This document shows positions 15,636 to 19,279 of a stretch of DNA of 64,000 nt, in pieces. Each line of letters opens with the position of its first letter. The stretch's first letter is position 1. Both the position numbers and the translations under genes were made by a program. Under the pieces are notes generated by a model. It had not been told where the DNA came from. It worked only from the letters and a program-made list of their open reading frames with translations, and did not search any database. Where the stretch lies: contig SPDP01000007.1 in assembly GCA_009360345.1 (NCBI GenBank), forward strand, positions 1 through 64,000, written 5' to 3'. This stretch comes from Alcaligenaceae bacterium SAGV5 (lineage in GTDB: Bacteria > Pseudomonadota > Gammaproteobacteria > Burkholderiales > Burkholderiaceae_B).

Positions 15636-15829
15636 GGAAAAAATCCTCGTCGCCGGCACGCCTGGTCGATCGCAATGCCTTCGACTCCCTGGTGCCGAAG
15701 CGTGAAAGTGTAAACGCAATGCCGGACCGCCCGACCGCGCTGCCCGCTGGAGTCACCACCCTGTAACGCGGGGCACGCAGGATGGCAGCGCTCCACTCCC
15801 GAGCGCCCACCCATCCGTACCCGAGAACA

Positions 15830-17233
15830 ATGAGCGAACACACCTATCCCGTCATCCCCCTGGACTTCTCCTTGCGCCGAGCCTTCCTGCTCAAGACCTT
15901 CCGCACCGCCGGCGCGGTCAGCCTGACGGGCTTCCTGGCCGCCTGTGGCGGCGACGGCGACGACTCCGTGAACCCCGCGCCGGTCGACCCCAAGCCCCCC
16001 GTTGACCCCGAACCGCCAGTCGAGAAGTTCAACCCCTTCGCCCAATTCACCGCGCTCCAGCCCGCCGACGCCAACGGCGTGATGCTGCCCAAAGGCTTCT
16101 CCTCGCGCATCGTCGCCCGCAGCGGCAAGGCGCCGGTCAGCGGCGGCAGCTTCCTGTGGCATGCCGCGCCCGACGGCGGCGCCTGTTATGCCACCGACGA
16201 CGGCGGCTGGATCTACGTCAGCAACGCGGAAATGATCGCCCCGCTGGGCGGCGTCAGCGCGCTCAAGTTCGACAAGACCGGCAAGGTCATCGACGCCTAC
16301 CCCATCCTGAAAAGCACTTCGGGCAACTGCGCCGGCGGCCCCACGCCCTGGAACACCTGGCTGTCGTGCGAAGAATTCGAACTCACCCAGCAGATCGCCG
16401 GCATGGTCTGGGAATGCGATCCCTACCACCCCTGGTCCGACGCCAACCCGCCGCGCGCCTGGCCCGCCCTGGGCAGGTACGCGCATGAAGCGGTCTGCGT
16501 GGACCCGTCCAACCGCATGCTGTACCTGACCGAGGACGCCAGCGGCGGACGGATCTACCGCTACGTCTGCGACGCCACCGACTGGCCCGCCAGCGCCGAG
16601 CGCCCCGTCAAGTTCGAGTCCGGCCAGTTGCAAGTGCTGCGCATCGACGCCCTGCCCCGCGACGCCGACTCTTCCGACGCGGCCTACGCGAACCTCATCG
16701 GCTTCGGCAAGACCCCGGTTTCCGTGACCTGGGAACCCGTGGCCTTTCCCGACCAAGGCCAGAAGAACATCCGCGACACCCTGCGCAAAGGCGGCATACT
16801 GCCCCCCGGCAACTACTTCCAGAAAGCCGAAGGCATCTGGTTCTTCAACGGCGTCGTCTTCTTCGTCACGTCCCGCAACAGCCGCATCTGGGCCTACGAC
16901 ACCGCCCATCGCACCCTCGAAGTCATCTTCGACGGCAAGCTGGGCCCGGCCGAGACCCACAGCATCGACGAACCGGACAACATCACCATCACCTCGTTCG
17001 GCGAAATGCTGGTAGCCGAAGACGCGGGCAACCTGGAAATCGGCGTGCTGCGCGACGACGGCACGTCGCAGGCGGTGATGCGGCTGGTCGGCCACGACGA
17101 CAGCGAGATCACCGGTCCCGCGGTGTCGCCCGACGGCACCCGCCTCTACTTCAGCTCGCAGCGCGGCACCACGGGCAAGTCGGAGGAAGGGATCACGTTC
17201 GAGGTGTTGTTGCCGACGAAGCTGGTGGGGTAG
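15830..17233 (+). CDS. PhoX-like (DUF839) lipoprotein phosphatase family protein
   Basis: Secreted beta-propeller protein related to PhoX alkaline phosphatases, 467 residues. The N terminus combines a twin-arginine-like SLRRAFLLKTF with a hydrophobic stretch and a lipobox (FLAACGG), so it is probably exported by Tat and lipidated. A proline-rich linker follows. The propeller part shows WISCEE-type (NTWLSCEEFE) and GRYAHEAVCVDPSN motifs, and the C terminus has GPAVSPDGTRLYFSSQRG. Phosphate starvation control is possible, but no Pho box was identified. Its 3' end overlaps the convergent XRE gene by 41 bases. Confidence 0.85.
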   Translation: MSEHTYPVIPLDFSLRRAFLLKTFRTAGAVSLTGFLAACGGDGDDSVNPAPVDPKPPVDPEPPVEKFNPFAQFTALQPADANGVMLPKGFSSRIVARSGKAPVSGGSFLWHAAPDGGACYATDDGGWIYVSNAEMIAPLGGVSALKFDKTGKVIDAYPILKSTSGNCAGGPTPWNTWLSCEEFELTQQIAGMVWECDPYHPWSDANPPRAWPALGRYAHEAVCVDPSNRMLYLTEDASGGRIYRYVCDATDWPASAERPVKFESGQLQVLRIDALPRDADSSDAAYANLIGFGKTPVSVTWEPVAFPDQGQKNIRDTLRKGGILPPGNYFQKAEGIWFFNGVVFFVTSRNSRIWAYDTAHRTLEVIFDGKLGPAETHSIDEPDNITITSFGEMLVAEDAGNLEIGVLRDDGTSQAVMRLVGHDDSEITGPAVSPDGTRLYFSSQRGTTGKSEEGITFEVLLPTKLVG

Positions 17234-17591
17234 GGTCGCGGGGGACGGGCGTGGGCAGCCTTTGCATTGGCACGGCGGAGGGGCTCGTGTGCTGCCCCGC
17301 CATCCGGTCATCAAGCTGATCGAGCGAAATCCCGAGTGCCTGGGCAATGTGGACGAGGGTCGCCTGACGCGGCCGGGCATCAGGACCTTCCATATTCGCG
17401 CAGGTCGGTTGCCGCACATCAAGGCGCGCCGCCATTTCCGCCTGGGTGATACCAAGGCACTCCCGCCACGCACGGATCAGGCTCCATCTATTCTTGACCT
17501 GAACGCTGACCACTTCATGAGGCACCGCCTCCCCCGCAGGGATGCGCGGCTCATTGCCAGCCAGCGCGATGTATTCGTCGTAGGGAAGCAC
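17193..17591 (-). CDS. XRE-family HTH protein (antitoxin-like), probably frameshifted at its 5' end
   Basis: The frame encodes LPYDEYIALAG at its start and an XRE helix-turn-helix (LGITQAEMAARLDVRQPTCANME), an arrangement common in HigA/MqsA-type antitoxin-like regulators. The ORF can only start at an internal GTG (17591). In another frame just upstream, GTG 17641 with a GGCGGA ribosome site reads VSTNHTIIDTGDGRP and then fits onto FVVLPYDEY if one base is restored near 17603. A single-base deletion (or read error) therefore probably broke the original N terminus. No toxin gene is recognisable next to it. The C-terminal tail is proline/threonine-rich and lies antisense to the PhoX-like gene. 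Confidence 0.65.
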   Translation of the reverse strand: MLPYDEYIALAGNEPRIPAGEAVPHEVVSVQVKNRWSLIRAWRECLGITQAEMAARLDVRQPTCANMEGPDARPRQATLVHIAQALGISLDQLDDRMAGQHTSPSAVPMQRLPTPVPRDPTPPASSATTPRT

Positions 17592-17827
17592 AACGAAGGC
17601 CGGCCGTCGCCAGTGTCAATGATGGTGTGGTTCGTGCTCACCGTGTTTTCCGCCAGGCTATTGCCGGGATGGGGTTTCAGTCCATCTGGCCATCGCACGG
17701 CTTCGCCTCTTGCACTTCGACCATTCGGATTTCGTGATGCGCGTCGAACAGCACACCTTTGTAGAGTCACGCAGCAGGTAGCGCGCCGGGCTCATGCCCC
17801 GGAGATCGACGGTTCGAGCCAGTCCCT

Positions 17828-17918
17828 CGACTTATCCCCGCTTACGCGGGGAACACGGACTCCTCAGTGGTGATCCCGCCGCCCTTGCGCGGTTCATCCC
17901 CGCTTACGCGGGGAACAC
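17828..17918 (-). CRISPR. Orphan two-repeat, one-spacer CRISPR array, type I-E repeat
   Basis: Two 29-base units lie at 17828-17856 and 17890-17918, separated by a 33-base spacer (17857-17889). Both contain the palindromic core CCCCGCTTACGCGGGG followed by AACAC, which on the minus strand is the well-known type I-E repeat beginning GTGTTCCCCGCG. The right-hand copy is canonical across 29 bases. The left-hand copy differs at three positions at its outer end, as is usual for the leader-distal, terminal repeat. With the AT-rich leader at the right, crRNA transcription would run on the minus strand. No cas gene is present within the window. Confidence 0.85.
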
Positions 17919-18020
17919 ACCAAATATAAGTGACTGTTTTAAAAAGAAAAAATCAGCCCCTTGAAATCCACCAACTTTTTAAAGAACCAATCCACCAGAA
18001 AAACAAACCGTTTTTTGCCT
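17919..18020 (-). promoter_or_regulatory. AT-rich CRISPR leader
   Basis: About 100 bases directly next to the canonical repeat are strikingly AT-rich compared with the rest of the window, with runs such as TTTTAAAAAG and GAAAAAATC. On the minus strand the motif TTGGTGGATT occurs close to the repeat with a second GGTGGATT about 20 bases further upstream, resembling the leader layout of known type I-E arrays. This orients the array (leader right, terminal repeat left). The leader reaches to within about 120 bases of the dgt stop; no cas remnant is visible in between. Confidence 0.6.
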
Positions 18021-18142: not shown

Positions 18143-19279
18143 CTACTCGTCCGCCACCAAAAACAACCGCCGGTGCTCCTTGATGGCATACCGGTCGGTC
18201 ATCCCCGCGATGTAGTCCGCGATCGCGCGCGGCTGGTCCACGTTGGCCCGTGCCTGGTACTGCGGCGGCAACAGGCGCGGGTCTTCGAGGAAGGCAATGA
18301 ACAGGTCGCGCAGCACGCGCTTGGCCTTGGTGGTCATGCGCAGCACGCGGTAGTGGCGATACAGGTTGTCGCGCAGGAACACCTTGAGTTCCTCGGCCTC
18401 GGCCTTTACGTCGGGGCTGAAGCCCGCCAGGGGCGGTGCGCGGCGCACGTCGTCGATGGACGCGGGCTGGTGCCCGGCGATGCGGGCCGCCGTGGTTTCG
18501 GTCAGGTCGATGATCAGGGTGTTGATCATGCGCCGCACGGTCTCGGTGATGGCGCGCCGCTCGGGCAGGTCCGGGTAGCGCTGCACGACTTCGGCATGAT
18601 GGCGGCCGAAGATGCCGACCTGCCGCATCTGTTCGAGGGAGACCAGGCCCGAGCGCAGGCCGTCGTCGATGTCGTGGTTGTTGTAGGCGATCTCGTCCGA
18701 CAGGTTGGTCAGTTGCGCCTCCAGCGACGGCTGGGTGCGGTTCAGGAAGCGCTCGCCCACGTCGCCCAGGCGGGCCGCCCGGGTCAGCGAGCAATGCTTG
18801 AGGATGCCCTCGCGCGTCTCGAAGCACAGGTTCAGGCCGTTGAAGTCGCCGTAGCGTTCCTCCAGTTCGTCTACCACGCGCAGGCTTTGCAGGTTGTGCT
18901 CGAAGCCGCCGGCCTCGGGCGCGAATTCCTGCATGCAGGCGTGCAGCACGTCCTGACCGGCATGGCCGAAGGGGGTATGGCCAAGGTCATGGGCCAGCGA
19001 AATGGCCTCGACCAGGTCCTCGTTCAAGCCCAGGTTCCGCGCGATGGAGCGGGCGATCTGCGCCACCTCCAGGCTATGCGTGAGCCGGGTGCGGAACAGG
19101 TCTCCCTCGTGGTTCACGAAGACCTGGGTCTTGTACTCCAGCCGCCGGAAAGCGTTGGAATGGATGATGCGATCGCGGTCGCGCTGGAATTCGGAGCGCC
19201 CCTGGGGCGGGGTTTCGGGGTGGCGCCGGCCGCGGGTGGCGGCCGGGTCGGCGGCGTACGGAGCGAGGATTTGCGGCAT
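18143..19279 (-). CDS. dgt: Deoxyguanosinetriphosphate triphosphohydrolase-like HD protein
   Basis: dNTP triphosphohydrolase that converts dGTP to deoxyguanosine and triphosphate. The 378-residue protein has the HD-domain metal ligands in [16 protein letters not shown] and [15 protein letters not shown], plus the later [17 protein letters not shown]. It follows aroB on the same strand after about 30 bases (aroK-aroB-dgt order), the usual arrangement in Alcaligenaceae and other betaproteobacteria, so co-transcription is likely. Confidence 0.93.

Follow-up and report, generated by a model that had tools for sequence, protein, structure and literature searches.

A single-spacer type I-E CRISPR array between dgt and phoX, very probably the remnant of an eroded CRISPR-Cas locus

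Orphan CRISPR arrays and the decay of CRISPR systems are already known, and the closest described cases come from E. coli, for which PMC8616872 recounts that orphan arrays remain after the loss of type I-F cas genes (Almendros et al. 2016, told in PMC8616872). According to the same source, the spacer of an orphan array can block the establishment of incoming cognate cas genes. The array described here was found in a 64,000-nucleotide stretch of DNA from Alcaligenaceae bacterium SAGV5 (hereafter the window; contig SPDP01000007.1 of assembly GCA_009360345.1). It resembles the type I-F orphan arrays of E. coli in that it would be a small array remaining after the loss of cas genes. The two differ in their spacers: the best matches of the E. 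coli spacers, as presented in PMC8616872, are cas genes, whereas the best match of the window spacer is a phage lysozyme gene.

The window holds a minimal type I-E array on the minus strand, consisting of leader, repeat, spacer and repeat, which is read in the direction from a dgt-like to a phoX-like gene. The leader-proximal repeat (17890-17918, minus strand, 29 nt) is identical to the consensus repeat of two arrays that lie beside the type I-E cas3 gene in G008, one of the ten other genomes of the genus that were compared (G001 to G010). It is followed by the single spacer (17857-17889, minus strand, 33 nt) and by the leader-distal, terminal repeat (17828-17856, minus strand), which is identical to the leader-proximal unit at 26 of 29 positions. 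All three differences fall within the outer six positions, which agrees with a preliminary description of this DNA in which the distal copy had been called degenerate at its outer end; the positions given there for the repeat units and the spacer hold as well. Over the whole 64 kb of the window, no exact 23-mer other than the core of the repeat (17834-17856 and 17896-17918) recurs at a distance of up to 100 nt. Units of 29 nt and a spacer of 33 nt are those of a type I-E array, and the spacers of the relatives' arrays are nearly all 32-33 nt long.

The leader adjoins the first repeat and extends from 17919 to about 18078 on the minus strand, as delimited by blastn homology to array leaders. 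When the repeats, the spacer and the leader were used together as blastn query, the closest matches lay in G008:C21 (an array with 79% identity, reaching 18073) and in G002:C21 (an array with 76%, to 18078). The window leader was aligned with 14 leaders from arrays of the same genus (15 sequences in total) and scored over the 75 alignment columns that adjoin the repeat. The set did not include the second G002:C21 array, a small one of G009 (783.7-784.1 kb) or two from G001. Of the 32 columns in which the other 14 leaders never vary, none is changed in the window leader; of the 38 that are conserved to at least 90%, one is changed. This change, at position -16, is also found in one cas2-adjacent array of G002. 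Judged by this alignment, the leader is intact, with all 32 invariant columns kept, and the AT-rich stretch beside the repeats had rightly been taken for a leader. A stretch of 69% identity to the repeat end and leader of the window is present in G002:C29:31674-31820 (L043 3675-3821), where no array of at least two repeats was called; it is perhaps another leader remnant.

A comparison of the dgt-phoX interval among related strains had been proposed in the preliminary description. With a 1051-base query around the array, matches were obtained in 10 of the 11 genus genomes, the own one included; seven proteins of the window together with ten proteins of G009 (eight Cas proteins, a RelE-like and an XRE protein) were mapped by tblastn on 18 stretches and the window. 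The flanking anchors are the dgt-like gene (18143-19279, minus strand), which encodes HD and HD_assoc domains and has its best named matches in Achromobacter and Bordetella (77-78%), and the phoX-like gene (15782-17233, plus strand; PF05787). An array is located inside this interval in six of the 11 genus genomes (the window, G002, G004, G007, G008 and G009), a count in which phoX was not located in the five remaining ones (G001, G003, G005, G006 and G010). The repeat numbers given below in brackets derive from one pattern, and a second pattern differs by one in some arrays.

The order in G007 is dgt, array (25), XRE gene, cas3 to cas2, array (25), array (24) and phoX, with all arrays in the same direction. 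G008 carries dgt, an array (22) and the start of cas3 at the end of a first contig, and the remaining cas3, the genes to cas2, an array (11) and phoX on a second one; we infer that the two contigs adjoin. In total, G008 carries two type I-E loci, one of which is apparently split in this way over two contigs within cas3. One contig of G002 shows dgt, approximately 16 kb, an array (32), a cas1 fragment (residues 209-307) with cas2, an array (34) and phoX, and another contig shows an array (24), a complete operon, an array (18), relE and an XRE gene. The cas1 fragment and the whole cas2 gene between two arrays (G002:C21:44893-45493; L045 4894-5494) are a half-deleted cas operon, and the same genome has a complete one on another contig. 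G009 has dgt, array (10), relE, XRE gene, one repeat and phoX, with its cas operon about 65 kb away. This operon, a homologue of the one in G008, is of type I-E by its protein profiles: Cse1, Cse2, Cas7, Cas5, Cas6 and Cas1 score above the NCBIfam cut-offs, Cas2 passes PF09707, and Cas3 is above the cut-off for two Cas3 domain models and reaches 517.9 of the 569 bits needed for the full-length model. In G004, the order is dgt, about 15 kb, array (8) and phoX, and its genome gave no Cas1, Cas3 or Cas7 match. Outside this series, G001 has a diverged type I-E system located elsewhere, G003 carries type I-F cas3 and cas1 genes approximately 6 to 10 kb from dgt (L057 11347-15734, G003:C15), and no Cas1 match was found in G005, G006 and G010.

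In the window, the order is reduced to dgt, two repeats, the remnants of relE and an XRE gene, and phoX. The distance from the end of dgt to the end of phoX is about 0.9 kb here, 1.7 kb in G009 and 16.6 kb in G007. The window shares the dgt-phoX site, the 29-nt repeat family and a homologous leader with the type I-E loci of G007, G008, G002 and G009, and with those of G002 and G009 also the RelE-XRE neighbours. It differs from them in lacking every cas gene that was searched for and in having one spacer, whereas the arrays of these relatives comprise 10 to 43 repeats, with the exception of a broken G009 array (3 plus 2). The G004 array is similar to that of the window in its genus, its position in the dgt-phoX interval and the missing Cas1, Cas3 and Cas7 matches; it is longer, is separated from dgt by other DNA and has another leader type. 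The dgt-phoX interval is thus a type I-E CRISPR-Cas site in the genus, which is whole in G007 and, over two contigs, in G008, and which is eroded in G002, G004 and G009 and most of all in the window.

A tree of dgt and the upstream aroB, calculated for the 11 genus genomes and two outgroups, groups the window with G004, G009, G007 and G002 with a support of 1.000, and G008 with G010 forms the next group; among the closest species, the branching order has weak support (0.204 and 0.437). Since all of these grouped relatives except G010 have arrays at the site, a loss of the cas genes in the lineage of the window is the simple reading. The window therefore very probably holds an eroded type I-E locus at dgt-phoX, which lost its cas operon and most of its spacers in this lineage. 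A deletion of the cas operon near dgt was one of two options raised in the preliminary description, and the whole or partial type I-E loci in the same interval of close relatives speak for it.

The ancestral state would have been a type I-E CRISPR-Cas locus between dgt and phoX. Arrays of the same direction that flank the operon, as they are found in G007, would allow recombination that deletes everything between them, and we infer that the cas operon of the window was lost by this route, with the leader, two repeats and one spacer left behind. Smaller deletions would also have broken the toxin-antitoxin pair. A possible trace of such an event is preserved in G009. There, 188 nt that run from the XRE gene across the next repeat match G002:C29 at 98% identity, and 132 nt that lead from this same repeat to phoX match the end of the G002:C21 array on the phoX side at 88%. 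The two homologous stretches overlap by 28 nt, which lie within the 29-nt repeat. The homology therefore switches within one repeat, and the join of at least one rearrangement at this site lies in a CRISPR repeat; this hints at a way in which cas operons may disappear here. The 73 bases of the junction between the XRE gene and phoX in the window (17234-17306) have no blastn match to G009 and contain no recognised repeat, so that the window's own join is either lost or located elsewhere. The leader of the window is of a different type from the leaders next to dgt in G007 and G009, which counts against a firm reconstruction of the route.

The genes between the array and phoX are decayed as well. 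Of the RelE/ParE-like toxin gene (17686-17754, minus strand), only a C-terminal part with residues 61-83 of the 85-residue G009 protein is recognisable. The XRE antitoxin-like gene (17193-17591, minus strand; HTH_3) shows nucleotide homology to the relatives from 17307 upwards; compared with G002 and G009, its N-terminal part is out of frame, and its C-terminus passes the end of the relatives' proteins. The G009 array adjoins an 85-aa ParE/RelE-like and a 113-aa HTH_3 protein, and the pair is encoded in one frame each beside the G002 and G009 arrays. The G007 copy of the XRE gene likewise seems to be divided between two frames, and the search for a RelE-like neighbour gave no match there. The array had earlier been placed between an XRE gene and dgt; this placement stands, with the amendment that the XRE gene is a remnant. 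The own genome contains a further XRE gene of this family at another place (G000:C13:204535-204849), and no array was found beside it. A tRNA-Met(CAU)-like sequence (17761-17832, plus strand) reaches 28.1 bits against an Rfam cut-off of 29, and ARAGORN reported no tRNA in the window or in nine relatives' loci. The end of this tRNA-like sequence overlaps the degenerate outer part of the distal repeat; it shares 31 nt (17767-17797) with trailers of the G002 and G009 arrays and partly resembles phage tRNA-Met genes.

The absence of cas genes, which the preliminary description had noted for the 64 kb, extends to the whole assembly for the five proteins covered. Pfam profiles for Cas1 (PF01867), type I-E Cas2 (PF09707) and Cas6e (PF08798) found no match in the own genome, and neither did the Cas3 and Cas7 proteins of G009 as queries; Cse1, Cse2 and Cas5 were not searched separately. 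By these five proteins, a complete type I-E CRISPR-Cas system is not present in the genome as assembled. As controls, the three Pfam models recognise Cas1, Cas2 and Cas6e of G009, and the Cas3 and Cas7 queries match five of the 11 genus genomes (G001, G002, G007, G008 and G009), with lowest identities of 44% and 54%, both in G001. PF22590, a model of a Cas3-like C domain, gave two hits in the own genome, located in open reading frames that encode 1447 and 722 aa. These were rejected as Cas3, since the model responds in every one of 14 control genomes and the full-length Cas3 query had no match; the frames are taken as other helicases. The assembly comprises 6.01 Mb in 16 contigs, with 98.68% completeness and 7.63% contamination, and therefore does not strictly exclude a cas operon in a gap. 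This bears on the second option raised earlier, a satellite array for which a cas operon at another place in the same cell would act in trans. The intact leader would fit such a role, and G009 provides an example of the arrangement with its dgt-side array far from its cas operon; however, the own assembly lacks a match to any of the five Cas proteins, and a genome-wide look for other arrays with the same repeat found no second one with a repeat core within three mismatches, so that service in trans is highly unlikely.

The origin of the spacer was approached by several searches. The preliminary description had recommended a BLAST search of the spacer, and blastn yielded nothing convincing against phages (lowest E 0.09 among the best 20 of 31 records) or plasmids (lowest E 0.9 among the best 20 of 71 records). 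In type I-E systems, mismatches are tolerated at five spacer positions; a full-length pattern in which these five were left open matched no viral contig. With up to three mismatches, the spacer matched the array itself and nothing else in 268 genomes of the family, and none of the 372 spacers of the genus arrays is shared with it (best 13 mismatches; some spacers are counted twice, as two of the stretches overlap). The canonical PAM of type I-E systems is AAG, and a pattern of AAG and the first 21 spacer bases matched one viral contig, while this pattern read backwards and its unreversed complement each matched none. The matched sequence belongs to a 143-aa phage lysozyme gene (PF00959; PHROG endolysin) and equals the spacer at 27 of 33 bases; the spacer reads RKGGGITTEES and the gene RKGGGITKEES. 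The spacer fits an RKGGGIT-EES motif that phage lysozyme genes carry behind AAG. A codon-degenerate pattern of AAG and the first seven codons detected 30 stretches, the best of which has five mismatches to the whole 33-base spacer. The lysozyme frame motif IDK-RKGGGIT is found in 26 of them, two of which are identical in sequence there, and is absent from four; as the pattern itself dictates AAG and RKGGGIT, the independent evidence lies in the surroundings alone. Among lysozyme loci collected by protein similarity, with AAG not required (best 80 of 125), the best has six mismatches and is on the query's own contig, and the next four have seven each. AAG is in front in seven of the eight best loci of this set, the query's contig included; it encodes a conserved Lys, and its presence is therefore partly a property of the gene. 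By comparison, the best of 60 shuffled spacers has 10 mismatches to the lysozyme loci. A near-exact source phage was not found in the phage, plasmid and viral-contig searches. With five to six mismatches in 33 bases to a gene of a mobile element and the type I-E PAM in front, the spacer most likely represents the memory of a phage, taken from a phage lysozyme gene.

This origin also weighs on the idea that the orphan array was exapted, either for a Cas-independent task of its transcript or for blocking incoming cognate cas genes by its spacer. The leader and the repeats are conserved, and anti-cas orphan arrays have been reported in E. coli (PMC8616872). However, in 17 genus loci holding most of their cas genes, the best match of the spacer has 11 mismatches, as opposed to five to six in phage lysozyme genes, so that the array does not have the spacer of an anti-cas orphan array and exaptation is very improbable. 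That the sequence is a chance or dispersed palindromic repeat instead of a CRISPR, as its mere two units might suggest, has next to no probability and is in our view already refuted, since the repeat is the consensus of the G008 arrays beside cas3, the leader is homologous to array leaders, and the core has no further copy in the 6.01 Mb assembly with up to three mismatches allowed and therefore stands outside any dispersed repeat family, to which the second repeat might have belonged according to a caveat of the preliminary description.

As an eroded type I-E locus, the array is most likely an immunologically silent relic, which could work only if type I-E cas genes returned. Without Cas6e, Cascade, Cas3 and Cas1-Cas2, neither mature crRNA nor interference nor the acquisition of new spacers would be expected. 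Transcription from the leader may occur, and any transcript would be idle. It had been suggested earlier that the leader looks intact and could still support spacer acquisition or crRNA production; the first part is confirmed by the alignment, but acquisition and crRNA maturation are not expected in a genome without cas matches.

The more interesting part of the finding is the series of stages at one site together with the join inside a repeat. Closely related species show a decay series at dgt-phoX, which runs from the whole locus through partial cas operons and arrays without cas genes to one spacer with its leader. A tentative and rather doubtful extension is that arrays of the same direction act as recombination sites at dgt-phoX, by which cas genes are repeatedly excised and may be regained, so that mini-arrays such as that of the window could serve as a landing pad for re-arming. 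The series of stages and the join that was placed inside a repeat make the repeat-mediated loss and regain of cas genes testable.
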